A DNA stretch of 28,907 bases, from the IMG/VR virus record IMGVR_UViG_3300034104_002496, positions 1 to 28,907 of that record; one strand, given 5' to 3'. Shown here in pieces: positions 13,403-28,907 of the stretch (within the stretch, counting starts at the first letter, position 1; each line of letters starts with the position of its first letter). The translations under genes and the position numbers were made by a program. Under the pieces are notes generated by a model, which was not told the DNA's origin, made no database searches, and saw only the letters and a list, made by a program, of their open reading frames with translations. This stretch comes from a virus.

Positions 13403-16400
13403 ATGCCTATTAAGACAAACCTTGAATCACCACCATATTTTGATGACTATGATGGTAATAATGACTACTATAAGGTGCTTTTTAAGCCTGGAGTTCCTGT
13501 TCAGGTTAGAGAACTTAATCAACTGCAAACCATGCTTCAATCTCAGATTGAACGGTTTGGCGATAATATCTTTAAGCGTGGAACAATAATTGATGGTTGT
13601 GGTTTTACTTTTCATGATAATATTCCATATATTAAAATCAAAGATAGTGAAGCCAATACCGGAGCTCCAGTAAACGTTGCGGGTTATCCTGGTCTATATG
13701 CACGGAATGAAACCACAAACGTTCATGCGTATGTTATTGCATCCAACACTGGGTTTGAAACACAGGCTCCTGATTTAAATACTCTATACTTAAAGTATAT
13801 AAACAGTGGTATTGCCGGTGAAGCATCATTTTCTTCAAATGACCAAATTATAATCTATAATAAAGAAGAATCAGTTTATGAAGTTGGTATTGATAATGGA
13901 AGCACGGGATTCTCAAATACAGATTCAGTACTATTTTTAAGCGCTATAAGCGTACAAAATTCGTCTTCAGGTAAAACATTCTCAAATAGTTCAGGGCTTC
14001 TTTCTACATTTTCTCCTGGCCAAACAATTATTGGATCTACTTCTGGTGCTCAAGCTGTAGTTGTAGAAGCAAATACTACAGCAAATGCTGAAGCTATTGT
14101 TCTTAAACTAAGACCAGTTTATGCAGACCTAACCGCAAACCCAGCAAATACGGCAAAATGGACTTTTGCTTCTGAAGAAAATGTTACAGTAACTAATGGT
14201 CCAACAAATGCACGATTAATTAGTAAAATTGGTTCAGGCGCAACTGGTTCACTCGTCACAGATGGTGCAGGTAAGCTTATAACACTTACCGTTACTTCTG
14301 GTGGTCAAGGATATTATGTTCCTCCTTTTGCTACTATTATTTCTATTGGTGGTACTCCAAGCGCTCTTTCTTTAGAATCAAGAAATTATTTTGCTAAAGT
14401 TACAGTCGCAACTGTAGACTCTTCTGTAGGAACCGGATATGGTTTCTCTATTAGTAATGGCGTAATATATCAATTAGGTTATTTTTCAAGAGTTGCAAAT
14501 CAGTTTACCATTGTTGAAAAGTATTCAAATACACCTGACGCAAAAGTAGTTGGGTTTGATACCACAGAAATTATTAAGAACAGCAATCAAGATCAATCTC
14601 TTCTTGATAATGCTTTAGGAACATTTAATTATACAGCACCGGGCGCAGATCGTCTTGAACTAGTTCCTACTCTTGTAGTTCTTGATAAAACCAATGCTGA
14701 TGCGAATAATGACTTCTTCTCTATTGTTGAATTTTCTGAAGGTAAACCCTTTAAACAGAATAGAGTAACACAGTACAAAGCAATTGAAGATGAACTTGCT
14801 AAAAGAACATATGAAGAAAGTGGAGATTATGTTCTCGATCCTTTCTTAGTTTCTACTCTTTCTGATGAAAATTTTGAATGGGTAGATGCCGGCACTTCAA
14901 ATGAAGCAAATAATTTTGATATAATTATTGATCCAGGCAAGGCATATATTAGTGGTTATCGCGTAGAGACAATGGGTAACTATAGAGCAACTCTTGATAA
15001 ATCTGTTGACACCGAAATTGCATTAAACAGATCAGCCGGTGTAAATTATGAAAACTTTATTCGCGTTAAGAACGTTGCAGGGGTCTTCTTATTTTCAACA
15101 GGTGATATAGTTTCTTTACGCGATACTGTTAAGACGTTCTTAGAAACTGGGTCAAACTATGGCATTGCGCCAACTGCAGCTGGTTCTGAAATTGGTTCTG
15201 CAAGAATTAGATCAATGATATATGAATCAGGAATTCCTGGTTCAAATCAAGCAGTATATCGGTTATACCTATTTGATATTTCAATGAACACTGGCAAGAA
15301 CTTTAAAGATGTTCGCTCATTGTTCTATGATGGTGCAACTTATGATGGCGTAGCTGATGTTATTCTAGACACAACTTCATTAGGCACAAGCATTGCATCT
15401 CTTCAAGGAACAGCTAATGATATATTAGTTTTCCCAGTTGGTGAAAAAGCAGTCAAATCTGTCAACAACATTTCATATACGTATAGAACAATTAATCAAA
15501 CTGCGCTAACTGCAAACGCAGCCGGTAAGATTACAATAACAGTTACTGGTAATGAAACGTTCCCTTATCTTGGTGCGCTAAATTCAAATGAAAAAGAAGA
15601 CATTATTGTAATTCCCCTTGCCAATATTGCTGCTGCAGCTGCTATCACCGGAACTATTTCAGTCAATACTACAACGACAAATGTAGTTGGATCTGGAACA
15701 AGTTTTACTACTCAATTTGAAGCTGGTGATTATATTAAAATTTCTGCAAATGCTACTGGTGGATTTGATCATAGAAGAATCACAAGCATTACGAATGGTA
15801 CATTTTTAACTATTGATTCTAATGCTTCTTTTACAAATGCTGTTTCGACCGCCACGTTTGCTTTCCCTGCTTTTATTCCTGTTCCTCTTTCAACAAGAAC
15901 TGGGCGCGTTGCAAACGTTGATACCGCTCAACAAACAATGATCATTGATTTAAATCAGGCATTAAGTGGTGCAAATAATGTTGCTGTTGCATATAATGTA
16001 AAAGTAACTAATTCTACTCCAATTGCTAAGCAAGCTCAAAGAAACCTATTTGTTCGTATAGACTGCTCCAATAATACGGGTAACACTTCTGGTCCTTGGA
16101 CTCTAGGCGTACCTGATGTATTCAGACTAAGAAAAGTTTATAAGGGAACAACAAATACATTCACGTCTGCTACGTCCGGAATAGAAGATGTTACAAGAAA
16201 CTTTGTGATTGATCATAATCAAGATGAGAATGTATATAACCAAAGCTATCTTTACATTAAACCTGGTACCAATCAGACTTTGGCGGGTGGTGATAGACTA
16301 TTAGTTCAATTTGATTGTTTCTCCAACAATTTATCAAATACACTATTCAGTATTGGTTCATATACTGAAAATGATACTAAACTATTAGCTAATCTTACTA

Positions 16401-17839
16401 CAAGCGTTAACAGATTAGAAATTCCTCAGATGATTACTTCTAGAGGACAGAATGTAGATTTAATTGAATACTTTGATTTTAGACCTCTTTCTGTAAACAC
16501 TGCAGTTTTGTCCACAACTGAAGCTTCTGCTACAATTCATCCAGCAGAACCAGCAAGAGCTGCAAAATTTGGCAATACGCGTGATCCTGTTAATGATCAA
16601 AAATTCCCTGTGCCTGATAGTGATATCACATTTGATGCAGAATATTATGTTGGAAGAAAGGATCTTGTAATCATTGGATCTAACGGTGATTTCAATGTAA
16701 TCAAGGGAAAACCTGGTCTTACTCCAGTTGCACCAAAAACTCCAAGCGATAGTTTAGTTATTGAACTACTTAATATTGTGCCATATCCTTCATTGCCCCA
16801 GAATTTGTCTGCTAATACTTTAGCTTTCATTGATACTAAAGTCATTAATCATGTCAATTTGAATGAAAGAAAGAAACTTTATTCAATTACAAAAGAAGCT
16901 CAACTTAATCCTACCAAGTATAGTCAAACACCTGGCTTTACAATGCGAGACATTAAGAGCCTTCAGGATAGAGTTGAAGCATTGGAATATTATTCAACAC
17001 TATCTTTGGTTGAAGATAAAGTTAAGAATGAAGTAATCCCAAGTGGTGCAAATACTCAAGTTAATCGGTTTAAGTTTGGTTATTTTATTGATAATTTTAC
17101 TTCTTTAATTTATGCAGATATTAATGATCCAGAATTTAATGCTGGATATAATGCAGAAAGAAATAGATTAGTGCCTGCAAATGAACAAATAAATCTTCCT
17201 TTTAAGATTTATTCTGGTGAAGCAATAAATCAAAGCTTATATGGTAAGACGTTGATGTTACCATTTGAAAGCGTTTCTGTTGTAAGTCAATTACAAGCAA
17301 CTGGTGTTCCAAATGTTGGTTCAGCTTTGCCATTGACATATAATAAAGGAAAATTCTTTACTAAGATTCCTGCTACATTTACGCCGAAAGCGGTTGTTCC
17401 ACCAATTTATCAAACTTTAAATACTATAACTTTTCCATTTTTAAACCCACTATTTGTGCCACCAAAACCAACTACTCCAGTTAGAACAACCATTAGCCAA
17501 ACATTTCAGTTTATTGTAAATGGTTTAAGACCTTCTACTAGATTTTACTTTTTCTTTGATGGAAAAGATAATAGTTCAAAGTGTAAACCTATTGGTGGAA
17601 AAATTGGCGACCCAATAAAATCAGATAAGTATGGTATTGCTAATTTCCAATTCTTTTTAAATACTGTCCCATCAGACTTAGTTTCAAAAGAGTTAAATAC
17701 AAGAAAGATAACAGAATCACAAGCAGTTGGCCAAACATTATCCACTAGCAAAACTCTACAAATGAAAGAAAGTTCTTCTACTGGTACGATAGTAGCTGAA
17801 GGCGTATTACCAGTAAAAGTAACATTTACAAATAGTTAA
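13403..17839 (+). CDS. DUF4815-family virion structural protein (outer baseplate or fiber network), N-terminal half
   Basis: This 1478-residue protein begins with the DUF4815 signature: PPYFDDYDGNNDYYKVLFKP at residues 10-29, then VQVRELNQLQTMLQSQIERF at 33-52 and GDNIFKRGTIIDGCG. Members are large phage baseplate or fiber-attachment proteins found beside wedge genes. A second landmark is MRDIKSLQDRVEALEYY, then LSLVEDKV at about 1180-1205, a conserved coiled-coil-like stretch of the family. The region 750-815 is a 'GSGTSFTTQFEAGDYIKI' repeat of a type that recurs twice in the next gene. Near 1370-1440 is an Ig-like domain with NGLRPSTRFYFFFDGKD and SDKYGIANFQFFL. The end (TSKTLQMKES to VKVTFTNS) is short. 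It occupies the place of T4 gp9/gp10, but I see no sequence match to those. Homologs I recall continue past this point with sequence resembling the next gene. Confidence 0.85.
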   Translation: MPIKTNLESPPYFDDYDGNNDYYKVLFKPGVPVQVRELNQLQTMLQSQIERFGDNIFKRGTIIDGCGFTFHDNIPYIKIKDSEANTGAPVNVAGYPGLYARNETTNVHAYVIASNTGFETQAPDLNTLYLKYINSGIAGEASFSSNDQIIIYNKEESVYEVGIDNGSTGFSNTDSVLFLSAISVQNSSSGKTFSNSSGLLSTFSPGQTIIGSTSGAQAVVVEANTTANAEAIVLKLRPVYADLTANPANTAKWTFASEENVTVTNGPTNARLISKIGSGATGSLVTDGAGKLITLTVTSGGQGYYVPPFATIISIGGTPSALSLESRNYFAKVTVATVDSSVGTGYGFSISNGVIYQLGYFSRVANQFTIVEKYSNTPDAKVVGFDTTEIIKNSNQDQSLLDNALGTFNYTAPGADRLELVPTLVVLDKTNADANNDFFSIVEFSEGKPFKQNRVTQYKAIEDELAKRTYEESGDYVLDPFLVSTLSDENFEWVDAGTSNEANNFDIIIDPGKAYISGYRVETMGNYRATLDKSVDTEIALNRSAGVNYENFIRVKNVAGVFLFSTGDIVSLRDTVKTFLETGSNYGIAPTAAGSEIGSARIRSMIYESGIPGSNQAVYRLYLFDISMNTGKNFKDVRSLFYDGATYDGVADVILDTTSLGTSIASLQGTANDILVFPVGEKAVKSVNNISYTYRTINQTALTANAAGKITITVTGNETFPYLGALNSNEKEDIIVIPLANIAAAAAITGTISVNTTTTNVVGSGTSFTTQFEAGDYIKISANATGGFDHRRITSITNGTFLTIDSNASFTNAVSTATFAFPAFIPVPLSTRTGRVANVDTAQQTMIIDLNQALSGANNVAVAYNVKVTNSTPIAKQAQRNLFVRIDCSNNTGNTSGPWTLGVPDVFRLRKVYKGTTNTFTSATSGIEDVTRNFVIDHNQDENVYNQSYLYIKPGTNQTLAGGDRLLVQFDCFSNNLSNTLFSIGSYTENDTKLLANLTTSVNRLEIPQMITSRGQNVDLIEYFDFRPLSVNTAVLSTTEASATIHPAEPARAAKFGNTRDPVNDQKFPVPDSDITFDAEYYVGRKDLVIIGSNGDFNVIKGKPGLTPVAPKTPSDSLVIELLNIVPYPSLPQNLSANTLAFIDTKVINHVNLNERKKLYSITKEAQLNPTKYSQTPGFTMRDIKSLQDRVEALEYYSTLSLVEDKVKNEVIPSGANTQVNRFKFGYFIDNFTSLIYADINDPEFNAGYNAERNRLVPANEQINLPFKIYSGEAINQSLYGKTLMLPFESVSVVSQLQATGVPNVGSALPLTYNKGKFFTKIPATFTPKAVVPPIYQTLNTITFPFLNPLFVPPKPTTPVRTTISQTFQFIVNGLRPSTRFYFFFDGKDNSSKCKPIGGKIGDPIKSDKYGIANFQFFLNTVPSDLVSKELNTRKITESQAVGQTLSTSKTLQMKESSSTGTIVAEGVLPVKVTFTNS

Positions 17840-17842
17840 AGG
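17837..17842 (+). promoter_or_regulatory. Shine-Dalgarno site overlapping the stop of the preceding gene
   Basis: TAAAGG includes the stop codon of the DUF4815 gene and lies eight bases before the ATG at 17851. It gives the downstream half-gene its own translation start, which argues that the break between the two genes is real and not a sequencing error. Confidence 0.6.
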
Positions 17843-17850
17843 TATTTTAA

Positions 17851-20800
17851 ATGGCAAAGTACGATGCAATTCAAACTTTTTTTGTTCCTAGAGATCGCGT
17901 GAATGGATCACCCTATTGCTTTTTAACTGGCATTGATTTATATTTCAAAGCTAAACCAGATGCATTGAAGTCTATTTCTGGTATACTTAATCCTGGTGTC
18001 TCAGTTCATCTTTGCCCCGTAGAAGGAAACCATGAACCAAAGCCAGACAATATCTTAACTGATTCGCTAGTTCGTTTATCATATGACGAGATTCCAATTC
18101 TTCAATATCAAGTAGTACAAAAAGATGTGATTGATACTGAAACTCTTCAATCATATGCATATAGTCCATTATACACTGATGCTAAATTTAAAATAGTTGT
18201 TCCAAAAGATAGTTTATTAACTGTCGATCCACGATATTTTGATTTTGCTCCAATTGATTCTACTGCCACATTATTCTTTAATGCAAAAGGATCAGATAAC
18301 AAGGGTGGAAATTATAATGTTTCCAGTTCAACAAAAGGTAACTTTATTCAAGCATCATCTGCTACTTACCCTGGTATTTCTAAATTATCATCAACTGAAA
18401 AACAATCAGTTGGGCCTAAAATGTATCTTGATTCCGCTGAAGCTGGCCGTGGTGCTATAGCCTTACCAGATTGGTCATATGGAAGAGGAACGAATGAAAT
18501 TAAAGGTGTTGGTAAATTTACGTGGAATCATAAGAAAACTGATTCCGGAAGATATACAATTCAACTCGGTGCAGGAAAAGGTTGCAGTGTAGTATGTATC
18601 CTTAGATATGCTAGCGCAATCAAGACAGATAGTGCTCTTTCTGGTTCTATAAAAGTTCCAGGTATTTCTTCTGGTTCTAAAGTATTTGGTAATGCTGCAA
18701 AGGTTTTGTTTGACACTCCGGTAATCGTTAAGACAGATACTCTGTATGGTATTGTTGTAGATTATGAAGATAATGGATACCAACTATGGACAAACAAACA
18801 AGGTGAAAGATTAATTGGTACGATTGGCCAATCGGGTTCTAACCTATCACCAGGCGCAAGTGGTAAAGGTGATGGCAAATATTTTGATTATACAAATGAT
18901 CAATTGAGAGCAATAAATGATCAAGATTTAATGTTTGAAGTTTTTGCTGCTAAGTTCAAAGCTAATACAGCAAATGTAGAAATTACTCATCGTGATTATG
19001 AATTTATTACTGTTGGAAGTTATTCTTTAACAGGAAACAGCGCATATCCAGGTGAATTTGTGTATCAAGATTATGGTAACACAGTTGCAAACGTAACACA
19101 TGGATTTACTGGTTCAGGTTTCTTTAAGCAAGGCACAGTAAATGTTGATACACGAATTGGAACTGAATCCGCTTCTTATTCAGCTCTTATAGGAACAAAC
19201 ACAGTATTCACTCAAGACTTTGGTATTGGTGATTATATAGTTGTTACAGATTTAACCAGAAGTAACACCGATATTCGTCAAGTTTCTTATATTGCAAATA
19301 ACACGTATTTAACTACGGATCAGCCATTAACATTTGCAAATACTGCAGCCTTTGTAAAGAAAACTGCTATTGCTAAAGTATTTGATGCCGACTATGGTAC
19401 AAATAACATGATTCTTTTTGACACAAATGCTAACAGTTCAGTTAAGTTTCAAAGTTCTGGAATTGCATACGTAACAGTTACTGCAGGAGGAAGTTCTTAT
19501 ACAAATACTGACATTCTTCGTGTATATAGTGGTGGATCTACTCTCAATGCAACCGCAGCTGTAGTCACAAATTCTGCAGGTGGAATTGTTGCTCTTAGGT
19601 TCTCAAATGTTGGTGTTGGGTTTGCTTCTGCTCCAAATTTTATTGTATCTAATTCAACAGTATTAACATCCAACTCTTCAGCTGGATCTGGTGCAACATT
19701 TACTGCTAATATTGATGGGTCATATATCTTTGGTGAAACATCTCTATATTCAGCTAATCTAATTTCTGTTGATAATCGACCAATTAGCGTATTTGATCCA
19801 GATATAAAATTGAATAGAGAATCTATTGATACAGAATTAACTATTCAACATAATTTTGCATATTCAAATGGTGGAAATTATTATGTAAATACATCATTTT
19901 TAGCTACGACTTCTGATGGTAATAACTACATTACGAAATATAGTGGATTGATGATGTCTAGATCTAATGAAGTGAATTCTCCAACTTATCTTTATAACTC
20001 AGATAAATCTTCAGTAATGAAAGTACATTTGAATGCTAAGAAGCCATATGCTGCTTCTAGTGGCGGGTTATATGTTTCACCAATTCTTCATACTGACATG
20101 CTAAATGTGTTTACTTATCAATATGACGTTAACAGTGATTATACAAATGAAACTACTCGTTCTGGTAATGCTCATTCTAAGTATATAAGTAATAAAATTT
20201 CTTTTGCTAATAACAAATTTGCTGAAGATATTCGTGTATTCATGACTGCATATAAACCATCTGGAACAGATATTAAAGTCTATGCAAAAATTTATCATAC
20301 AGCAGATGGTGAAGCATATACAAATAAGAGTTGGAGTGCTTTGGACTTAATTGATGGTTCTGGTCTTCAGAGTAGCAAAACTAATTCTGATGACGTTATT
20401 GCATTGACTTTTGGATTTCCAAAATATCCAGAAGTTTTATCTACTCTAACTGGTAGCGTTACTGTTGGATCTGGTAGCGCTACTATTACTGGTGTTGGTA
20501 CTAATTTTTCATCAGATCTTGCTAATAATGATTTAATAAGAATTTATGATCCATTGCAGTCTAATACTAACTACTTTGTAGCAATTGCGACTTCAATTGG
20601 AAATACAACTTCGATGACTATAAATAGTACAACAACCAACAGTAGCGTGCTTGGATCAGGATTAAAAGTTGATAGACTCAAATATAAGACTGCCGCTTTC
20701 GTTAATCCACAAAATGATAATATCGTAAGATATTATACTTCTACAAATGTAGAACTTGATGGATATAACGTAATGGCAGTTAAGATAGTATTACTTTCAA

Positions 20801-20859
20801 ACAATATCAATTTAGTCCCTGAAGTTGAAGATATAAGAGTCATTGGAGTATCTGCATAA
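17851..20859 (+). CDS. Virion structural protein resembling the C-terminal half of DUF4815-type proteins
   Basis: This 1002-residue protein opens with IQTFFVPRD and CFLTGIDLYFKAKPD (residues 7-38). That 'QTF ... FLT-IDLYF-SK' motif I know from the interior of one-piece DUF4815-type structural proteins of marine T4-like phages. The associated beta-sandwich landmarks follow: VLFDTPVIVKTDTLYGIVVD near 288-305, YQLWTNKQGERL near 310-321 and DLMFEVFAAKF near 359-369. Two 'GT-x-F-x-GD-x-I' repeats lie at about 430-500 and 868-935, and a GGSSY repeat is near 543. The C-terminus, with DGYNVMAVKIVLLS then VEDIRVIGVSA, is a common closing domain of these proteins. Likely role: outer baseplate or fiber anchor acting with the preceding protein. 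Its stop shares a base with the next start. Confidence 0.75.
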   Translation: MAKYDAIQTFFVPRDRVNGSPYCFLTGIDLYFKAKPDALKSISGILNPGVSVHLCPVEGNHEPKPDNILTDSLVRLSYDEIPILQYQVVQKDVIDTETLQSYAYSPLYTDAKFKIVVPKDSLLTVDPRYFDFAPIDSTATLFFNAKGSDNKGGNYNVSSSTKGNFIQASSATYPGISKLSSTEKQSVGPKMYLDSAEAGRGAIALPDWSYGRGTNEIKGVGKFTWNHKKTDSGRYTIQLGAGKGCSVVCILRYASAIKTDSALSGSIKVPGISSGSKVFGNAAKVLFDTPVIVKTDTLYGIVVDYEDNGYQLWTNKQGERLIGTIGQSGSNLSPGASGKGDGKYFDYTNDQLRAINDQDLMFEVFAAKFKANTANVEITHRDYEFITVGSYSLTGNSAYPGEFVYQDYGNTVANVTHGFTGSGFFKQGTVNVDTRIGTESASYSALIGTNTVFTQDFGIGDYIVVTDLTRSNTDIRQVSYIANNTYLTTDQPLTFANTAAFVKKTAIAKVFDADYGTNNMILFDTNANSSVKFQSSGIAYVTVTAGGSSYTNTDILRVYSGGSTLNATAAVVTNSAGGIVALRFSNVGVGFASAPNFIVSNSTVLTSNSSAGSGATFTANIDGSYIFGETSLYSANLISVDNRPISVFDPDIKLNRESIDTELTIQHNFAYSNGGNYYVNTSFLATTSDGNNYITKYSGLMMSRSNEVNSPTYLYNSDKSSVMKVHLNAKKPYAASSGGLYVSPILHTDMLNVFTYQYDVNSDYTNETTRSGNAHSKYISNKISFANNKFAEDIRVFMTAYKPSGTDIKVYAKIYHTADGEAYTNKSWSALDLIDGSGLQSSKTNSDDVIALTFGFPKYPEVLSTLTGSVTVGSGSATITGVGTNFSSDLANNDLIRIYDPLQSNTNYFVAIATSIGNTTSMTINSTTTNSSVLGSGLKVDRLKYKTAAFVNPQNDNIVRYYTSTNVELDGYNVMAVKIVLLSNNINLVPEVEDIRVIGVSA

Positions 20860-21080
20860 TGGCTCTTCCAAGATTAATTAAGATTGACAATCAATTTGCT
20901 CGTGATACGACTACTATGGCTATTATAAATACTGATAGTTCTTACTATGATACAATTGTTGCAAATCGTCAGCAATCAAGTACAATAAAAGAAGTACAAC
21001 TTCAAGTTGAAAGCCTTAGAAATGAATTTAGTGAAATCAAAACAATGCTTCTTCAGATAATAGGAAATAAGAATGGCTAG
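20859..21080 (+). CDS. Small coiled-coil protein between the baseplate and fiber genes
   Basis: This 73-residue protein starts MALPRLIKIDNQFARD, followed by a short beta-like stretch. Residues 38-68 form a probable coiled coil with heptad-spaced hydrophobics (STIKEVQLQVESLRNEFSEI, then MLLQIIG). A GGAG at 20845-20848 lies ten bases before the ATG, and its end overlaps the first fiber gene by eight bases, so it is coupled to both neighbours. Small proteins of this shape sit at the same position in other marine T4-like phages, but I cannot name a function. By context it may trimerise and link fibers to the baseplate. It has no enzymatic motif. Confidence 0.72.
   Translation: MALPRLIKIDNQFARDTTTMAIINTDSSYYDTIVANRQQSSTIKEVQLQVESLRNEFSEIKTMLLQIIGNKNG
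21062..21065 (+). promoter_or_regulatory. Shine-Dalgarno site for the first fiber gene
   Basis: AGGA lies seven bases before the ATG at 21073, inside the end of the small coiled-coil gene. It supports this start despite the eight-base overlap. Confidence 0.55.
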
Positions 21081-24000
21081 AAGTGTATCTAACGTAAATA
21101 TAAGTACGGATTCATTCTTAACATGGATCACGCAAACTAATAAACTTCTAGAAGCTCTTAGAACCGATGTCATTACGGTTTCTACCTCTGTTACTGGAGG
21201 CAATGCAACATTAGCCAATACAACAGGCAATGCACAACTTATTGGTATCTTTGGCGCTAACACGGTTGTAGCAACTGATGGTTTGCGTGGTGGTAATGCA
21301 ACGGCTACTAATGTTCTCAACATTCTTTCAAACACTTCAGTAACTGGTGATTTTCTAAAAGTTGGCGCAAATGTACAATTAAATGCAACTAGTGTTTCTG
21401 TTGGTAATGCAACTATTAATTTAGTTGCAACACAAAATCTTCTTAAAATTTCTAATGCAACATCAACAGCAAATTTATCACCACTTGATTTAACAATTGG
21501 ATCAGCTGTTGTAAATGCAACTGTTCTTACAATTGGAACAGGTAATTTTTCTACTGGTGCTAATGTTGGTGCTAACGTTAATTTCACAACTTCAAGCATT
21601 CAAGTTGTAAATTCAATTTCAAACGTCGTGGTTAATTCTGGATTAGTAAAAGCATCTAATTCAACATCTACTGCTAATCTTACACCATCAGATCTTACAA
21701 TAGGTAGTGCAATTGTAAACTCTACTATTCTTACAATTGGAACAGGTAATTTTTCAACTGGTGCAAACATTGGTGCTAATGTTAATTTTACAACTTCCAG
21801 CATTGAAGTTGTAAATTCAATCTCAAATGTTGTTGTTAATTCTGGATTAGTAAAAGCATCTAATTCAACATCTACTGCTAATCTTACTCCTAAAGAATTA
21901 ACGATTGGTGCCACTGTTGTAAATTCTTCTTTAGTCACTGTCACTGGTGTAAATACAAGTTATGCTAATGTAACTGGACAAGTTAATACAGCAACATTAT
22001 ATGTTGCTACAAGCGCAAACGTAGGAACTGCTTTTACTGCTAATGCATCATTAGTAAATGCTATAGCTCTTAATGTAGTTAACCAAACAAATACAACAAC
22101 TCTTTATGTTACAACTTCAGCCAATATAGGAACTGCTTTTACTGCTAATGCATCATTAGTAAATGCTATAGCGCTTAATGTAGTTAACCAAACAAATACA
22201 ACAACGTTATTTGCTACTACATCTGCTAATGTTGGTGGTAATGTCCAAATGACGGTTTCACAGTATGGTATTACTGGTAATGCAACTACTGTTCCAACAA
22301 TGTCTCTTACTGCATCATCGTTGACAATTGGTAATAACACTATCACTGGTGCTCCAACAATTAATCTTGCTAACTCTACTGGCAACACCATAATTTATGC
22401 TAATGCAATTGATTCGACTTGGGGATTTGATGCGAATAATACTGGCGTTTATGTTACAAATTTTGTAAATGCTGCTTCTCATACAGTTGGCTCAAGTTTC
22501 ATAGCTAACGCTACAGCATTAGTCCATACTGGATTTGCTAATGTAACAACAAGTGTTAACTCGGCATTACTAACTGTTGGTACGGCTTTTACTGCTAATG
22601 CAACAGCCTTAGTTCATACCGGGTATGCTAATGTGACTGGAGCAGTTAATGCTTCTAGTCATACTGTAGGAACTAACTTTATAGCTAACGCTACAGCATT
22701 AGTCCATACTGGATTTGCTAATGTAACAACAAGCGTTAATACAGCATTATACACTGTTGGAACAACATTTACTGCTAATGCTACATTAGTAAATGCTATA
22801 GCACTTAATGTAGTTAATCAGACAAATACAGCAACGTTATTTGCTACTACATCTGCTAATGTTGGCGGTAACGCCCAAATAACAGTATCACAATATGGTA
22901 TTACTGGTTCCGCCACCGTGCCAACAATGGCATTAACTACATCATCATTGACAATTGGTAATAACACTATCACTGGTGCTCCATCAATTAACTTAGCAAA
23001 TAGCACAGGTAATACTACAGTTAATGCTATTGCTATTGGATCTAGTTGGGGATTAAGTTCTAACGCTTCAGGCATATATCATAGTGGCGTAGTTAATTCT
23101 TTTAGTCATACTTCTGGTTCTGGGTTTATCGCTAACTCAACTGCTATTGTTGGTACAGGCTATGCTAATGTAACTACAGGTGTCAATTCTGCACTACTAA
23201 CTGTTGGCACCAATTTTATAGCTAACGCTACAGCATTAGTCCATACTGGATTTGCTAATGTAACAACAAGTGTCAATTCTGCTTCACATACTGTTGGCAC
23301 CAATTTTATAGCTAACGCTACAGCATTAGTCCATACTGGATTTGCTAATGTAACAACAAGCGTTAATACCGCATTATTCACGGTTGGAACAACATTTACC
23401 GCTAATGCCACATTAGTTAATGCTGCTGCTATTAACGTTGTGAATCAGATTAATACTGCTTCTCTATTTGCTAGTTCAAACGTTAGTACTGTTAACGTAC
23501 TTGCTACATTAGTTACTTCTAACGTATCTGCTGGTTATGCTAATGTAACTGGTCAAGTTAACACCACAACACTATATGCAGGAACATCTGCAAATGTTGG
23601 CGGTAACGTTCAGATAACCGTGTCTCAATATGGCATCACGGGTAATGCAACCACTGTTCCAACAATGTCTCTTACTGCATCATCATTGACGATTGGTAAC
23701 AGTTCGATTACTGGTGCACCTCAGATTAATATTGCCAACAATCTTGGAAATACGATTGTTAACACTACATCAATAAGCACAACTACTGTATATGCTAATA
23801 CCACTGGTATTCATACCGGTAACGTATCAGCCACTGTTGTAAATGCTAGTGCCAATGTTAATGCTCCTTTAGTGTTTGCTAATGTTACAGGTACATATGC
23901 TAACATTACGGGCCAGGTTAATACTACAACGTTCTATGCTTCTACGTCTGCTAATGTTGGTGGTAATGTACAGATTACAGTATCACAATATGGTATTACT

Positions 24001-24834
24001 GGTAATGCAACTACTGTTCCAACAATGTCTCTTACTGCATCATCATTGACGATTGGCAATAGTACAATCACTGGTGCTCCAACAATTAACCTAGCAAATT
24101 CAACCGGTAATACTACGGTTAACACTACATCAATAAGCACAACTACTGTATATGCTAATACAACTGGTATTCATACGGGTAACGTATCAGCTACTGTTGT
24201 AAATGCAAGTGCTAACGTAAATGCACCATTGGTATTTGCCAATGTTAGTGGTACATATGCTAACATTACGGGCCAGGTTAATACTACAACGTTCTTTGCA
24301 ACTACATCTGCTAATGTAGGAGCAAATGTACAGTTAACTACTTCACAACTGTTTATTGGCAATTTAACAGCAAACGTATTATCAAACTCAACAATTGTTA
24401 CAATAGCTAATTCTTCTGGTATTGCAAATCTTCAACCTGCATTGCTAACGATTGGCGGATCGGTTGTTAATACTACTTATGTAGCAGCAAATAATTTAGT
24501 AATTAATACAGATTGTGAGATGCGAGTATCGTCAAATACTCTTAATGCAAATATTACTTCTGCTCAAGTATTTTTCACATTTGCTACTTCTTTCTCATCT
24601 GCAAAAATTACGGCTCAAGTAAAACGCTCGGGTAATGTTCAAACTTCTGATATGATCATTGTGCATGATGGAACAGATGCATTTATTTCTGTATATGGTA
24701 CTGTTATAGCTCCTTCAGCTTCATCTGATCTTGGTGATTTTAGTGTTGGCGTAAATGCTGGTAACGTTGAATTGAAATATCAACAAACAGCTGCTAGTTC
24801 TGTTATTAAAGTAATCGCTCACCTAATAAAGTAA
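21073..24834 (+). CDS. Tail fiber protein 1, built of tandem beta repeats
   Basis: This 1253-residue fiber has an attachment-type N-terminus typical of marine myovirus fibers: STDSFLTWITQTNKLLEALR at residues 11-30, then VITVST, GNAQLIGIFGANTVVATDGL and RGGNA. Residues about 110-1130 are repeats rich in Asn, Thr, Ala, Val and Ser with no Cys, consistent with a long beta-solenoid or triple beta-helix shaft. The period changes along the chain: 68, 35, 30 and then 120 residues. The last 110 residues form a separate globular domain (CEMRVSSNTL, MIIVHDGTDAFISVYGTVI, DLGDFSV, VELKY) that is recognisably related to the end of the next gene. No intramolecular chaperone motif or sugar-binding domain is visible. 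The protein probably binds host surface structures, but that is inference from fold and position. The antisense open frames over this gene are by-products of its repetitive codons. Confidence 0.87.
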   Translation: MARSVSNVNISTDSFLTWITQTNKLLEALRTDVITVSTSVTGGNATLANTTGNAQLIGIFGANTVVATDGLRGGNATATNVLNILSNTSVTGDFLKVGANVQLNATSVSVGNATINLVATQNLLKISNATSTANLSPLDLTIGSAVVNATVLTIGTGNFSTGANVGANVNFTTSSIQVVNSISNVVVNSGLVKASNSTSTANLTPSDLTIGSAIVNSTILTIGTGNFSTGANIGANVNFTTSSIEVVNSISNVVVNSGLVKASNSTSTANLTPKELTIGATVVNSSLVTVTGVNTSYANVTGQVNTATLYVATSANVGTAFTANASLVNAIALNVVNQTNTTTLYVTTSANIGTAFTANASLVNAIALNVVNQTNTTTLFATTSANVGGNVQMTVSQYGITGNATTVPTMSLTASSLTIGNNTITGAPTINLANSTGNTIIYANAIDSTWGFDANNTGVYVTNFVNAASHTVGSSFIANATALVHTGFANVTTSVNSALLTVGTAFTANATALVHTGYANVTGAVNASSHTVGTNFIANATALVHTGFANVTTSVNTALYTVGTTFTANATLVNAIALNVVNQTNTATLFATTSANVGGNAQITVSQYGITGSATVPTMALTTSSLTIGNNTITGAPSINLANSTGNTTVNAIAIGSSWGLSSNASGIYHSGVVNSFSHTSGSGFIANSTAIVGTGYANVTTGVNSALLTVGTNFIANATALVHTGFANVTTSVNSASHTVGTNFIANATALVHTGFANVTTSVNTALFTVGTTFTANATLVNAAAINVVNQINTASLFASSNVSTVNVLATLVTSNVSAGYANVTGQVNTTTLYAGTSANVGGNVQITVSQYGITGNATTVPTMSLTASSLTIGNSSITGAPQINIANNLGNTIVNTTSISTTTVYANTTGIHTGNVSATVVNASANVNAPLVFANVTGTYANITGQVNTTTFYASTSANVGGNVQITVSQYGITGNATTVPTMSLTASSLTIGNSTITGAPTINLANSTGNTTVNTTSISTTTVYANTTGIHTGNVSATVVNASANVNAPLVFANVSGTYANITGQVNTTTFFATTSANVGANVQLTTSQLFIGNLTANVLSNSTIVTIANSSGIANLQPALLTIGGSVVNTTYVAANNLVINTDCEMRVSSNTLNANITSAQVFFTFATSFSSAKITAQVKRSGNVQTSDMIIVHDGTDAFISVYGTVIAPSASSDLGDFSVGVNAGNVELKYQQTAASSVIKVIAHLIK
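21451..21927 (+). repeat. In-frame tandem repeat, 204-base (68-residue) period, 2.3 copies
   Basis: Units start at 21451, 21655 and 21859. Each begins SNATSTANL or SNSTSTANL and includes LTIGTGNFSTGAN and FTTSSI(Q/E)VVNSISN. Copies 2 and 3 are more alike than 1 and 2. The third copy breaks off at about 21927. A related element (ASNATSTANLSPVDLKIGSA) recurs once in the third fiber gene near 26430-26490. Confidence 0.85.
21994..22230 (+). repeat. In-frame tandem repeat, 105-base (35-residue) period
   Basis: Units begin at 21994, 22099 and 22204 (partial). The core is TSAN(V/I)GTAFTANASLVNAI followed by ALNVVNQTNTTTL. Related single copies occur at about 22750-22840 and 23370-23460 and in the third fiber gene at about 27830-27930. 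Confidence 0.82.
22501..23400 (+). repeat. In-frame 90-base (30-residue) repeat region with a 53-base segment identical in four copies
   Basis: The unit is roughly ANATALVHTGFANVTTSVN plus a short SASHTVGTNFI. A 53-base segment starting ATAGCTAACGCTACAGCATT is identical at 22501-22553, 22681-22733, 23218-23270 and 23308-23360. The last two copies are tandem and share a further 20 bases upstream. Copies 1 and 2 are two units apart. The two pairs are separated by a 537-base stretch carrying other modules. Confidence 0.88.
23596..24315 (+). repeat. In-frame tandem duplication, 360-base (120-residue) period
   Basis: The two units start at 23596 and 23956, each with VGGNVQITVSQYGITGNATT; a diverged third start is at 24316. 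Each unit runs through TSISTTTVYANTTGIHTG and VNAPLVFANV(T/S)GTYANITG. The proteins are nearly identical, while the DNA differs mainly at third codon positions. Confidence 0.88.
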
Positions 24835-24845
24835 AGTAAAGCAAA

Positions 24846-25754
24846 ATGCCATCAGCAAATAGTAGATTTAAAACAGAGAATGGACTTTTCGTAACCGGTG
24901 GTAATGCTGAGTTTACTCAGATAGTTACAGTAGGAGGTAATTGCACAGTAAGTGGTGATTTGTTATTTGTTGGTGGCAACCTTACAGTCCAAGGCACTCA
25001 AGTTTTTCAAGGTGGTCAAATTTATGTAAGCAACATCACTGCCAGCATGGCTGGTCTAGGTATTGGTAACACCACTTATGCCTTTGATGTCTATTCCGCT
25101 AATCTTTTTGTTAACACTGCAGTACTACCACTAAATAACACTATTCCATTAGGAAACACTACACGAAGATTTGTAACTTATTCAAACACGCTTGATGTTT
25201 CTACCACTGCATTGATTTCTGGTAACGTCACTATTTCTGGAACATCACACACTATTGCCGGTAATGTTAATATTGACTCTGGTGTGTTGTTTATTGATGG
25301 AACAAACAATCGGGTTGGTATAAACAATACTGCTCCAACTACAGGTGTAAATTTACAAGTAACTGGTAATGCTAACGTTTCTGCTAATTTGGTTACTTCT
25401 TTAGTAGTGGTTAATAATGCTATTTTTGCATCCAATAGTAAATCTGTTACTTCTACTACTCAAGTGCTAGTTGATGATTTCCCATTAGTTCTATCAAACT
25501 GTGTTAAATATCTTGTGTTTACAAGAAATACAGGAAACACTGTTGTTCATACATTAGAATTAATGGCAATTCATGATGGTACTAATGTACTTTTATCTCA
25601 ATATGGTGAGGTTTTTAATACTTCACTTGGTTCATTTGATGTGAACATTAACGTTGCAAATGTTGAATTAAAGTTTACAGCAACTGCAAACGGAGCAGCA
25701 CCAAACGTAACACATCCATATACAGTCAAAGTATTAAGAACACAAATTACATAA
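24846..25754 (+). CDS. Short tail fiber protein 2
   Basis: This 302-residue protein begins RFKTENGLFVTGGNAEF, then VTVGGNCTVSGDLLFVGGNL and TVQGTQVFQGG, the usual N-terminus of short phage fibers with successive beta-hairpin turns. The middle has the fiber motif VLFIDGTNNRVGINNTAPTT, which recurs twice in the next gene. The last 110 residues (from about 190) form a closing beta domain: TSTTQVLVDDFPLVLS, KYLVFTRNTGN, LMAIHDGTNVLLSQYGEVF, LGSFDVNI and YTVKVLRTQIT. The same domain, more diverged, ends fiber 1. This one looks like the better preserved version. The start has only a weak AAAG-type ribosome site in the 11-base gap after fiber 1. Its shaft is far shorter than that of either neighbour, so it could be a separate short fiber or a minor tip protein. 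Confidence 0.83.
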   Translation: MPSANSRFKTENGLFVTGGNAEFTQIVTVGGNCTVSGDLLFVGGNLTVQGTQVFQGGQIYVSNITASMAGLGIGNTTYAFDVYSANLFVNTAVLPLNNTIPLGNTTRRFVTYSNTLDVSTTALISGNVTISGTSHTIAGNVNIDSGVLFIDGTNNRVGINNTAPTTGVNLQVTGNANVSANLVTSLVVVNNAIFASNSKSVTSTTQVLVDDFPLVLSNCVKYLVFTRNTGNTVVHTLELMAIHDGTNVLLSQYGEVFNTSLGSFDVNINVANVELKFTATANGAAPNVTHPYTVKVLRTQIT

Positions 25755-25760
25755 GCATTA

Positions 25761-25770
25761 GAGGAGAGGG
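25761..25770 (+). promoter_or_regulatory. Strong Shine-Dalgarno site for the third fiber gene
   Basis: GAGGAGAGGG ends six bases before the ATG at 25777, in a 22-base gap. It is the strongest ribosome-binding site in the window and suggests that the third fiber is made in quantity and without dependence on coupling. Confidence 0.75.
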
Positions 25771-25776
25771 AATCTA

Positions 25777-28700
25777 ATGGCAATTTCTAAAGATTTCGTT
25801 GTTAAGAACGGCCTACAGGTCGGTTCTAGTTTACAAGTCAACTCTACTGCTACATTTTCAAACGATGTAACTATTTCTGGCAACTTAACTGTTTCTGGAA
25901 CAACTACGTACGTTAATACTGCAACTTTAAACATTGCAGATAATATTGTTACACTAAACGCTGACGTATCTGGCGCAACATCTCCTACTGAAAATGCAGG
26001 ATTAGAAGTTAATCGTGGTAGTTCAGCAAACGTTCAATTGCGTTGGAATGAAACAACTGACTCATGGGAACAGTCCAATGCTGGATTAAGTGTTTATTAT
26101 AAACTCTTAGCAAACAGTGATATTCTCGATAGTCTTGTAAGCACTAGCATAACTGTTGCAGCTTCAGCTAACTCAGTAAAAGCAGCATATGATACTGCAA
26201 TATCACAAGGATCAACTGCATATAGCAATGCAACTACATATGCATCAAATGCAACGAATATCTCATCTGGTACTTTAAACACTGCACGCTTACCAGCTCA
26301 AGTCAATGTAAGTGCTAATCTTAACATTGGCGCTTTTGGTACAACGAATGGTGTGAATATTCAAAACACAGCAATCGTTGTTGGTAACTCAACAGCCAAT
26401 GCAACACATGCCTATAATTTATTACAGGCTTCTAATGCTACAAGCACTGCTAATCTTTCTCCTGTTGATCTTAAGATAGGTAGCGCTATAGTTAACTCAA
26501 CTGTGTTAACTATAACAACAGTGAATGCCACTACTGTGAATGCAAACACGTCTGGTATTCATACCGGTAACGTATCAGCTACTGTTGTAAATGCTAGTGC
26601 CAATGTTAATGCTCCTTTAGTATTTGCCAATGTTACTGGTACATATGCTAATATCACTGGTCAAGTCAATACTGCAACGTTCTTTGCTGCCACAAGCGCT
26701 AACGTTGGTGGTAACGTTCAAATTACAGTGTCTCAATATGGCATCACGGGTAATGCAACCACTGTGCCAACAATGTCTCTTACTGCATCATCATTAACGA
26801 TTGGTAATAGTACAGTTACGGGTGCTCCATCAATTAACCTAGCAAACAGTACTGGTAACACTACAGTTAATGTAACTTCTATTGGATCCAGTTGGGGTCT
26901 AATTTCAAATGCATCTGGTGTGTATCATAGTGGTGTAGTTAATGCTGCATCGCACACTACTACTACAACTGTATCTAATACAACTGGATTCTTTCCAACA
27001 ACGAATGCTATAGCATTAGGAAACAGCATAGGACTTTGGGTAATTTCAGCAAACAGCTTAGGCGCCAATAGTATCACTGTAACTGGTGGTAACCTTAACG
27101 CTGCTACTGTTTATGCTACTGGTCTTGTTAATGCTCAAAACTTTACAACTACTGGTACAGTCAATACTGCCACGGTTTTTGCAACTGGTCTTGTTAATGC
27201 TGCTAATTTTACAACTACTGGTACAGTCAATACTGCTACAGTTTTTGCAACTGGACAAATAAATGCGGCATCATTCAGGACAACCAATAGTGTATCCAAT
27301 ACATCTGGGTTTTTTCCAATAAGCAATGCAGCAGTTGGAGCATTAGGAAACTCAACTGGTCTTTGGGTAGTGTTGGCTAATAGCGTTACTACTAATACTT
27401 TAACAGTTTCCGGCGGAACAATTACTTCTGGAAACGTTAATATTACTGGATATGTTAACGCTTCAGCTAACTTAGTTGCTCCTTTAGTATTTGCTAACGT
27501 ATCTGCTGGTTATGCTAACGTGACAGGTCAAGTGAATACAGTTACGTTCTTTGCAACTACATCTGCAAATGTTGGTGGTAACGTTCAAATTACAGTGTCT
27601 CAATATGGTATTACTGGTAATACTACTACTGCGCCAACATTGTCATTGACTGGTTCAGCTTTAACGATTGGTAACAGTTCGATCACAGGCGCACCTTCAA
27701 TTAACCTAGCAAATAGTACCGGCAATACTACGGTTAATGTAACTTCTATTGGATCCAGTTGGGGTCTAATTTCAAATGCATCTGGCATATATCATAGTGG
27801 TGCAACTGCTGTAATTAATGCTTTTAGTCATACAGTTGGAACAACATTTACTGCTAATGCTACATTAGTTAATGCTGCTGCTATAAACGTCGTAAACCAA
27901 ACAAATACTGCGACTCTTTTTGTAACTACATCAGCTAACGTAGGTACAGCATTAACGATTAGCGCCACAGCACTTACTGTAGCACCTAATGCTAACTTTG
28001 ACTCAGGTACACTATTCGTCGATGCTGTCAATAATCGTGTAGGTATCAATAACACTGCTCCAGGTGTTGCTCTAAGAGTTACTGGTGCGGTTGATATTAG
28101 TAGTACAGCTAATATTCAAGGTAATACTAATGTTGGTGGTACTTTAGGTGTTACTGGTGCTGCTAATGCGTTAAGCACATTAGGTGTTAATGGTTTATTA
28201 ACTGCTGCGGCAGGCCTTACAGTTACTGGCACGGCTAACGTATCATCTAATTTAAATATTGGTACATTTGGTACAACGAATGGTGTGAATATTCAAAATA
28301 CAGCAATTATTGTTGGTAACTCATTAGCTAATGCTTTAATAAGTGGTAATTTAATTTCTGTAAGTAATACAGCTAACCTAACATCTACAACATTAACGAT
28401 TGGTACTACGACTGTTACTACAGCTTTGATTAATACTGCTGCGCTAAACGTTGTCAATCAAACAAACACAGCGACACTTTTTGTAACTACAAGTGCTAAC
28501 GTAGGTACAGCATTAACGATTAGCGCCACAGCACTTACTGTAGCACCTAATGCTAACTTTGACTCAGGTACACTATTTGTTGATGCAGTTAATAATCGTG
28601 TAGGTATCAATAACACTGCTCCAGGTGTTGCATTAAGAGTTACTGGTGTGGTTGATATTAGTAGTACAGCTAATATTCAAAGTAATGCTAACGTTGGTGG

Positions 28701-28907
28701 TACTTTAGGAATTGCTGGTTTAACAACTGCTGCGGCTGGGCTTGCAGTTACTGGCACGGCTAACGTATCATCTAATTTAAATATTGGTACATTTGGTACA
28801 ACGAATGGTGTGAATATTCAAAATACAGTTATTATCGTAGGCAACACAACTTCAAATGCTTTGATAAGTGGTAATTTAGTATCAGTAAGCAACACGGCTA
28901 ACTTAAC
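25777..28907 (+). CDS. Tail fiber protein 3, long repeat-rich fiber (5' part; runs off the window)
   Basis: I translated this frame by hand. It stays open for 1043 codons to the window edge, so the gene is partial. It starts MAISKDFVVKNGLQVGSSLQ, followed by VSGTTTYVNTATLNIADNIV. Residues about 62-110 then form a fiber domain found in many marine phage proteins: TLNADVSG, then SPTENAGLEVNRGSSANVQL, then RWNETTDSWEQ. After a helical stretch (ITVAASANSVKAAYDTA) the rest is beta repeats of the same kinds as in fiber 1, including two VGGNVQITVSQYGITGN modules, two GSSWGLISNASG modules, a 22-residue tandem repeat and a 187-residue repeat. Fiber motifs such as NNRVGINNTAPGVALRVTG occur twice. I predict that the missing C-terminus carries a closing or tip domain. 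It is probably the long host-recognition fiber, but binding specificity cannot be read here. Confidence 0.9.
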   Translation, partial: MAISKDFVVKNGLQVGSSLQVNSTATFSNDVTISGNLTVSGTTTYVNTATLNIADNIVTLNADVSGATSPTENAGLEVNRGSSANVQLRWNETTDSWEQSNAGLSVYYKLLANSDILDSLVSTSITVAASANSVKAAYDTAISQGSTAYSNATTYASNATNISSGTLNTARLPAQVNVSANLNIGAFGTTNGVNIQNTAIVVGNSTANATHAYNLLQASNATSTANLSPVDLKIGSAIVNSTVLTITTVNATTVNANTSGIHTGNVSATVVNASANVNAPLVFANVTGTYANITGQVNTATFFAATSANVGGNVQITVSQYGITGNATTVPTMSLTASSLTIGNSTVTGAPSINLANSTGNTTVNVTSIGSSWGLISNASGVYHSGVVNAASHTTTTTVSNTTGFFPTTNAIALGNSIGLWVISANSLGANSITVTGGNLNAATVYATGLVNAQNFTTTGTVNTATVFATGLVNAANFTTTGTVNTATVFATGQINAASFRTTNSVSNTSGFFPISNAAVGALGNSTGLWVVLANSVTTNTLTVSGGTITSGNVNITGYVNASANLVAPLVFANVSAGYANVTGQVNTVTFFATTSANVGGNVQITVSQYGITGNTTTAPTLSLTGSALTIGNSSITGAPSINLANSTGNTTVNVTSIGSSWGLISNASGIYHSGATAVINAFSHTVGTTFTANATLVNAAAINVVNQTNTATLFVTTSANVGTALTISATALTVAPNANFDSGTLFVDAVNNRVGINNTAPGVALRVTGAVDISSTANIQGNTNVGGTLGVTGAANALSTLGVNGLLTAAAGLTVTGTANVSSNLNIGTFGTTNGVNIQNTAIIVGNSLANALISGNLISVSNTANLTSTTLTIGTTTVTTALINTAALNVVNQTNTATLFVTTSANVGTALTISATALTVAPNANFDSGTLFVDAVNNRVGINNTAPGVALRVTGVVDISSTANIQSNANVGGTLGIAGLTTAAAGLAVTGTANVSSNLNIGTFGTTNGVNIQNTVIIVGNTTSNALISGNLVSVSNTANL
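26704..26862 (+). repeat. VSQYGITG module, fifth copy, shared with fiber 1
   Basis: About 53 residues from VGGNVQITVSQYGITGNATT to SINLANSTGN. Copies in fiber 1 start at 22231, 22861, 23596 and 23956. This copy shares a 38-base identical tract (26728-26765) with 23620-23657 but differs there from the fiber 1 copy at 23956. Confidence 0.85.
27121..27265 (+). repeat. In-frame tandem repeat, 66-base (22-residue) period
   Basis: Units start at 27121, 27187 and 27253 (partial, diverged). The unit is GLVNA(A/Q)NFTTTGTVNTATVF plus AT. The first two copies are almost identical in DNA. Confidence 0.85.
27571..27729 (+). repeat. VSQYGITG module, sixth copy
   Basis: This is the same module as at 26704, with NTTTAPTLSLTGSALTIGN in place of NATTVPTMSLTASSLTIGN. 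It is followed, as in the copy at 26704, by the GSSWGLISNASG module, whose DNA is identical for about 50 bases between the two places (about 26863-26920 and 27733-27785). Confidence 0.83.
27871..28907 (+). repeat. Large in-frame direct repeat, 561-base (187-residue) period
   Basis: Unit 1 covers 27871-28431. Unit 2 starts at 28432 and continues to the window edge. Segments 27940-28016 and 28501-28577 are identical over 77 bases. Unit 2 lacks 36 bases (12 residues) of the stretch GVTGAANALSTLGVNGLL, near 28144-28200 of unit 1, so later parts of the units are 525 bases apart. The deletion keeps the frame. Confidence 0.87.

Follow-up and report, generated by a model that had tools for sequence, protein, structure and literature searches.

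Length variation and probable module recombination in two fibre genes of a T4-like virus from IMG/VR

Changes in fibre genes through recombination between repeats have been known from single cultured or laboratory phages. Here we describe variation of this kind among wild relatives, in the fibre genes of the IMG/VR virus record IMGVR_UViG_3300034104_002496. The window, that is the whole stretch of DNA analysed, is this one record of 28,907 bases. It holds three putative tail-fibre genes (fibres 1, 2 and 3), which adjoin T4-like baseplate genes and lie downstream of them, and the record end lies inside fibre 3. Several described systems resemble this locus in part. In the cyanomyophage S-TIM4, the structural protein ORF108, which has a YadA domain, carries clustered synonymous changes within 120 bp that are identical to regions up- and downstream, and two or more recombination events are proposed as their source (PMC6224464). 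The likeness is that of a T4-like phage of water with short-tract recombination in a tail-fibre-type gene, but S-TIM4 concerns one gene in experimental populations, and the available portion of the paper reports no change in module number. In the Xanthomonas oryzae phages OP1, Xp10 and Xop411, domain duplications in the tail fibre are tied to host range (PMC2248197). Here too, related phages have unequal numbers of in-frame repeat domains in a tail fibre; the difference is that the domains are small and N-terminal, that one gene is involved, and that no exchange between two genes is described in the available portion. In the Enterococcus phage EfV12-phi1, 1.8-kb tandem duplications arose during co-evolution with the host (PMC6365445), again a case of a myovirus tail fibre that changed its length in frame, but one made of tandem copies of one segment in one gene. 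In T4, duplications of a small domain of the adhesin are reported to have widened the host range (Tetart 1996, as cited in PMC9603124 and PMC2248197), whereas in fibre 1 a long shaft is concerned. Hypervariable host-recognition islands are also described for pelagimyophages (PMC7029224). A literature search by title or start of the abstract found neither the locus of the window nor any case of two fibre genes exchanging sequence, although such a search does not prove absence. Two features are apparently new: modules that two fibre genes share and apparently exchange, and, in wild relatives, a series of lengths between constant ends with a terminus that is predicted to be gp9-like.

Fibres 1 and 3 probably share a stock of diverged, in-frame modules that is reshuffled by recombination, altering shaft length and overwriting parts of modules. 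The motif SQYGITG occurs four times in fibre 1 and twice in fibre 3, with fibre 2 in between; an initial annotation, made from the letters of the window, had listed these six copies (as VSQYGITG) in two genes parted by a third. Lengths are in amino acids (aa) or nucleotides (nt), and the genes and repeats are the following.

21073..24834, plus strand: fibre 1, 1253 aa, with a conserved N-terminal anchor, a shaft built of repeats and a conserved C-terminal domain predicted to be gp9-like
24846..25754, plus strand: fibre 2, 302 aa, without repeats and constant in length; the C-termini of fibres 1 and 2 align
25777..28907, plus strand: fibre 3, at least 1043 aa, open at the record end; rearranged among relatives beyond the N-terminal 200 aa
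22195..22404, plus strand: YGITG copy f1_1, left partner of a 630-nt difference in relative C
22825..23034, plus strand: YGITG copy f1_2, the right-hand partner in that 630-nt difference
23560..23769, plus strand: YGITG copy f1_3, with 38 + 29 nt in common with f3_1; part of the 3' half is identical to f1_4 in relative A
23920..24129, plus strand: YGITG copy f1_4, with 56 nt in common with f1_1; lies in a 360-nt tandem unit absent from relatives C and D
26668..26877, plus strand: YGITG copy f3_1, in which 26728-26793 is fibre-1-like in the window and not in A, C and D
27535..27744, plus strand: YGITG copy f3_2
22468..23412, plus strand: repeats of 90 nt (30 aa) in two arrays (22468-22785 and 23095-23412), with one unit fewer in relative B

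Length of fibre 1 among wild relatives

The five relatives are IMG/VR contigs of uncultured viruses, called A (L009/L016), B (L010), C (L011/L013), D (L012/L014) and E (L015). Four of them encode the 1002-aa neighbour upstream of fibre 1 at 97-98% identity, and the fifth, E, starts inside fibre 1. Relatives are 94-97% alike across long colinear stretches. A, B and E form one strain cluster (A and B are 99.8% identical over 15,472 nt, A and E 99.6% over 8,006 nt), and the window matches A at 97.2% over 19,101 nt without gaps, up to the point inside fibre 3 (26951) where colinearity ends.

Relatives differ in fibre 1 by whole in-frame repeat units, in register. The complete protein has 1253 aa in the window and in A, 923 in C and 714 in D, while fibre 1 of B runs to the record end at 951 aa and E covers only the end of the gene. 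Compared with the window, C has 630 nt fewer between f1_1 and f1_2 and 360 nt fewer between the tandem copies f1_3 and f1_4; D has 1257 nt fewer between two 'FTANA.LVNA' repeats plus the 360-nt difference of C (the two relatives share its breakpoint interval, and it is taken as a single case); and B has one 90-nt unit fewer. Words such as "fewer" and "absent" carry no polarity here, and the ancestral state is not implied. The differences in C and D sum exactly to their fibre 1 protein lengths. In a register test against pairs of endpoints in fibre 1 whose distance is a multiple of three, the fraction of pairs as similar as those observed is 4.8e-5 for the 360-nt difference, 1.6e-3 for the 1257-nt difference and 1.8e-4 for the 90-nt difference. 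At the 630-nt junction 43 of 50 bases match on the left and 41 of 50 on the right, if a one-codon difference between the copies is allowed. The control genes nearly keep their length: fibre 2 has 302 aa in all five records that contain it, the window, A, B and C do not differ in the length of the 1030-aa and 1002-aa genes, and the gene of 1478 aa in the window has 1479 aa in C. The wild relatives give a natural series (714, 923 and 1253 aa) in which the ends of fibre 1 stay constant, and the unrepeated, constant gene adjoining it serves as a control. The initial annotation had looked to structural variation between related genomes, and close relatives do differ in module number, in register. 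It had also proposed a shuffling of shaft length and of receptor-facing modules; the change in length is borne out in fibre 1, but "receptor-facing" is not, the end of that fibre being 98-99% conserved and, as predicted, gp9-like.

It is worth considering whether such differences might be made by assembly, with short-read assemblers joining wrong repeat copies in metagenome contigs. All relatives are IMG/VR contigs, and four of the six records (the window, B, C and E) have a contig end within fibre 1 or fibre 3. In addition, A has an exact tandem repeat of 113 nt where B is 90 nt shorter, which an assembler could collapse, so that an artefact is possible for B. For C and D it is less likely: near the junctions, exact identity between the arms in the window does not exceed 32, 44 and 8 nt, which is little for an assembler to be misled by. 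A and E, which are separate records, agree over the 4473 nt of fibre 3 save one base, and the window and A have one fibre 1 architecture although they are about 3% apart. Open frames are also kept in all variants, though in-frame repeats alone would ensure this. Taken as an account of the whole pattern, misassembly is therefore quite improbable. Viral contig catalogues may nevertheless hide structural variety at fibre loci, with four of six records stopping or starting in these very genes.

Probable exchange among repeat modules

The modules align over 210 nt and are 77-84% identical in the three pairs from the window that were examined, and in the alignment identical blocks adjoin synonymously diverged ones. 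Thus 22264-22319 equals 23989-24044 (56 nt), and 23620-23657 equals 26728-26765 (38 nt), followed by one mismatch and 29 more identical bases (23659-23687 and 26767-26795). Both tracts are exact to the base as given in the initial annotation, apart from the 29-nt extension, which is added here. Its further observation, that 23804-23873 is closer to 26552-26621 than to the tandem copy 360 nt downstream, also holds, with 1 mismatch in 70 against 9 in 70. Exact repeats of at least 25 nt are confined to these two genes: all 36 pairs in the window lie in fibres 1 and 3, 18 within fibre 1, nine within fibre 3 and nine between the two.

The tracts are too long for differences scattered at random, and divergence within module pairs is not uniform. 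In a scatter test, each pair's own differences were randomised within codon positions in 20,000 trials, and runs as long as those observed had P = 0.00015 for the 56-nt pair and P = 0.0003 for the 38-nt pair, and appeared in 0 of 20,000 trials for f1_3/f1_4. A GENECONV-like permutation test, a check that the initial annotation had named, was run on the six copies of the window with 2,000 permutations, and at all sites gave global P values of 0.0185 (56-nt pair) and 0.0165 (38-nt pair). With silent sites alone, only the pair f1_3/f3_1 between fibre 1 and fibre 3 is significant in the window (global P 0.0055) and the 56-nt pair is not; in relative A, f1_3/f1_4 is significant at silent sites (P 0.0285). 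Nor does one tree hold for all parts of the module. For 17 distinct copies out of 25 (after removal of seven duplicates and one truncated copy) the alignment was cut into three segments, which gave three trees, and in the approximately unbiased (AU) test the data of each segment reject both other trees in all six cross-tests (P from 3e-11 to 9.6e-5). These P values are somewhat flattering, because the segments were picked after viewing the alignment. In the pairwise homoplasy index (PHI) test, 18 copies give a significant result at 30 nt (P below 0.001). Taken together, these sequence comparisons strongly support recombination among modules.

Selection at the level of DNA, RNA or codons could in principle conserve tracts that were never copied, and the YGITG core is indeed nearly invariant as protein. 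Such selection would keep the same columns everywhere, but here the tracts are specific to pairs of copies, with different synonymous codons in the remaining ones, and we regard this explanation as very improbable. The YGITG module is present in 14 loci, some of which encode another fibre type that starts with MANN or MANT. An AlphaFold2 fold of the shaft module (15 sequences) had a mean pLDDT, the model's confidence score, of 44 and was discarded, and the A3 profile found no relative by sequence among solved structures at a useful E-value (best 0.06).

As for mechanism, recombination would occur between sister modules within one gene, between both genes, or between co-infecting genomes. Unequal in-register exchange would lose or gain whole modules and so change shaft length, and exchange of short tracts (about 30-70 nt) would overwrite parts of modules. 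The most likely agent, by inference, is general phage recombination between diverged repeats, presumably through a UvsX-type recombinase. UvsX-like recombinases are found in two other records, G007, which shares the module, and G008, whose gp6-type protein is 54% identical. A dedicated diversifier, either a retroelement or an invertase, might be suspected from the fact that fibres 1 and 3 are far more variable in length than their neighbours. However, among nine records including the window, possibly all of them fragments, there was no match to reverse transcriptase (RVT_1, PF00078; the control was positive in 3 of 14 genomes), to serine recombinase or resolvase (PF00239), or to tyrosine recombinase or phage integrase (PF00589). 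Between 20800 and 28907 there are six pairs of inverted repeats, the longest 25 nt at 80% identity, and none is sited as the borders of an invertible segment. It is hardly to be expected, then, that such a system acts on the locus, and the view of the initial annotation that neither reverse transcriptase nor invertase is needed agrees with this to the extent that fragmentary records allow.

In the G008 record, the UvsX-like gene (L124 1420-3568) seems to be interrupted after residue 217, with a separate open reading frame in between. The ends of this insert are, we assume, intein-like, and other PHROG matches, which begin near residue 217, belong to other proteins.

Fibre 3 and possible sources of the shared tracts

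Fibre 3 is 97-99% identical over its first 200 aa between the window and A, C, D and E, and the records diverge after about residue 300. Complete proteins have 1490 aa in A and in E and 656 aa in D. YGITG modules number three in A and E, two in the window (at least 1043 aa), one in D, and one in C, where the record ends at residue 476. The last 361 aa of fibre 3 in A and E have no match in the window or D at E 1e-5, with the record of the window ending before the terminus of the protein. D has a different end from A and E, so that fibre 3 varies at its far end as well as in its shaft; different distal ends are seen in fibre 3 only. Directly after fibre 3, D (L012 8023-9165) encodes a protein of 381 aa that has a 2OG-Fe(II) oxygenase domain (PF13640), for which some PHROG matches are labelled ferrochelatase.

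Where the short tracts come from was approached with 48-nt intervals of the window, compared with the orthologous places in A (1944 intervals), C (1659) and D (1399). An interval was called divergent if it had at least five mismatches, and a donor was a place elsewhere in either genome's own fibres with at most one. Donors of this kind were found for 45 of 179 divergent intervals against A, 33 of 256 against C and 7 of 100 against D. The clearest case is in fibre 3 of the window, where 26728-26793 has 13-15 mismatches in 48 to the orthologues in A, C and D and one mismatch to the window's own fibre 1 at 23632. At this one tract, the comparison supports conversion between the two genes. Almost the same haplotype is present in the third fibre 3 module of A (f3_3), and the donor could instead have been a fibre 3 module of a co-infecting strain. 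Conversion between fibre genes, as read by the initial annotation, is thus upheld as recombination among modules and at this tract, but the donor there may have been the fibre 3 of another strain; its observations are confirmed, and its interpretation is supported in part. Within fibre 1, templated patches number five in the comparison with A and three in that with C.

Several results weigh against the reshuffling of modules by recombination. Most divergent intervals are without a near-identical own paralogue (134 of 179 against A, 223 of 256 against C and 93 of 100 against D), which means that sequence brought in from other strains is at least as important. Between A and E, 29 of the 34 differing sites in 8,006 nt fall inside one 217-nt patch of a fibre 1 module, which speaks for exchange; no exact donor was found for the patch, and it lies at the start of the E contig, so that it is weaker evidence. 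The 1257-nt junction in D has weak arms (111 of 200 matches, 8 nt exact), which points to recombination between diverged repeats or to a parent whose copies were more alike. Single-break models did not fit the main fibre 3 rearrangements in A and D (minima of 123 and 89 mismatches), and of the four junctions tried the other two fit better, namely a 66-nt unit in A (9 mismatches) and the second junction in D (19). The PHI test at 50 nt is not significant, either for the six or seven copies of one genome (P 0.79 and 0.54) or for 18 copies (P 0.11). UvsX was not seen in the records of the close relatives, which are fragments. Finally, in the wider family of fibre 1, the pair L187 and L191 (766 and 723 aa) was tried as a repeat-mediated case and rejected, since the 129-nt difference has no flanking repeats (arms 18 of 62).

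Some of these results would also be expected if strains recombined at matching positions alone, on top of old duplications and without any conversion among paralogous modules. Such allelic exchange fits the majority of divergent intervals that have no donor in their own genome, the near presence of the fibre-1-like haplotype of fibre 3 in A's third fibre 3 module, and the fact that divergence between the window and A is patchy over the whole region, unrepeated parts included. On the other hand, allelic exchange leaves the number of modules fixed, and in-register differences in length require misaligned pairing. Copy f1_3 of A also bears f1_4 sequence over a stretch where the window and D keep another type. 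Allelic recombination on its own is for these reasons an unlikely explanation, and recombination among diverged modules remains the preferred one. As for the pattern of divergence itself (10310-26951 of the window against L009), it is about 1% in the 1030-aa and 1478-aa genes and 1.3% in fibre 2, 4-5% in the 1002-aa gene and the N-terminus of fibre 1, and 14% at the end of the colinear part.

The ends of fibre 1 and the surrounding genes

The two ends of fibre 1 are constant and can be delimited as follows.

21073..21402, plus strand: N-terminal anchor domain of fibre 1, common to at least 80 IMG/VR loci
24475..24834, plus strand: C-terminal domain of fibre 1, with a predicted fold like the C-terminal domain of T4 gp9; 98-99% aa identity in A, C, D and E

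The anchor belongs to no Pfam family (best E 0.037, unrelated), and the N-terminus of fibre 1 has a match to phrog_25747, a tail fiber protein (E 2.8e-4). Fibre 1 as a whole has no match in Pfam or PHROGs at E 1e-3. The C-terminal domain was predicted with pLDDT mostly 80-95 (fragment residues 126-234), and the model resembles residues 169-282 of T4 gp9 (1qex) with Z 13.3 and a root mean square deviation (rmsd) of 2.2 over 107 residues. The next structural matches are a chain of Klebsiella phage KP1 (9f4a, Z 11.2), and tailspikes and fibres at Z 10.4 to 8.1, of which two have a large rmsd. By this model, the C-terminus has the fold of a gp9-type beta-sandwich. In sequence the likeness is weak: the family PF23618 (T4 gp9/10 C-terminal) gives E 0.017 in one of 16 aligned proteins and no match above the 25-bit cut-off in seven records, the best score being 18.4 bits, for a fibre 2 relative in G010. 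T4 gp9 (PDB 1qex) is the connector of the long tail fibre, going by its PDB title; the predicted fold of fibre 1's C-terminus is like it, but the T4 chain has 288 residues, as opposed to 1253 aa with a variable shaft in fibre 1. Because the fold is also found in tailspikes, a connector and a receptor-binding reading of the domain both stand. Fibre 2 is near T4 gp9 in size (302 against 288 residues) and has the C-terminal domain type of fibre 1, and it may be the better gp9 counterpart.

Given a constant end that is predicted to be gp9-like, what the variable shaft determines may be reach and not specificity. Fibre 1 would then be a stalk, with the modelled end docking another fibre or binding the cell, and variation would be kept by selection on reach and attachment. 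This makes a testable proposal, that reach, beyond receptor binding, may be what evolves. A more far-reaching picture, which we put forward tentatively and as a possibility that may well prove wrong, is that of a gp9-like connector with a recombining stalk of hypervariable length, where fibres 1 and 3 act as sequence banks for each other and the population tunes reach and renews the shaft surface without a dedicated enzyme. If true, a constant anchor, a variable stalk and a constant gp9-like end (190-1253 aa in all) would be a common device of uncultured T4-like phages.

The wider family consists of the 80 or more loci with the anchor and the window, 81 in the set used, of which 74 are complete; near-duplicates were kept, and A, C and D are included. 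The complete members have 190-1253 aa, and 67 of the 74 share the C-terminal domain type among the matches listed. Among 60 pairs alike at both ends, again among the matches listed, 43 are of equal and 17 of unequal length, five of the 17 within the group of the window; these counts give no rate, because many pairs are near-duplicates. Another group of the family differs, by eye, in the count of 12-aa repeats.

Upstream of the fibres, the window spans a T4-like baseplate block with a hub protein and then wedge proteins. One wedge protein is labelled gp6 in cyanophage records, and the nearest relative of the gp6-type protein among 50,697 phage records is in Caulobacter phage Cr30 (41%). In the same set, fibres 1 and 2 have no match at E 1e-3, and fibre 3 matches 18 records, each with its best place within the first 133 residues. 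The 1002-aa protein upstream of fibre 1 had no relative in GTDB genome contigs. This protein (17851-20859) and the 1478-aa protein (13403-17839) match the back and the front of phrog_358 (2056 positions), respectively; going by this match, they are perhaps one gene elsewhere, but two genes in the window and in A, B and C. The wedge proteins at 5883-10307 and 10310-13402 have roughly double the length of their best PHROG profiles (1474 against 765 and 1030 against 478 positions), and look rich in repeats as protein, yet contain no exact repeat of at least 25 nt. On the minus strand, open frames of 207 to 83 aa run antisense over fibre 1 (20976-21599, 21600-21944, 22104-22391, 22818-23075 and 23160-23411), and are probably a by-product of its repeat composition.

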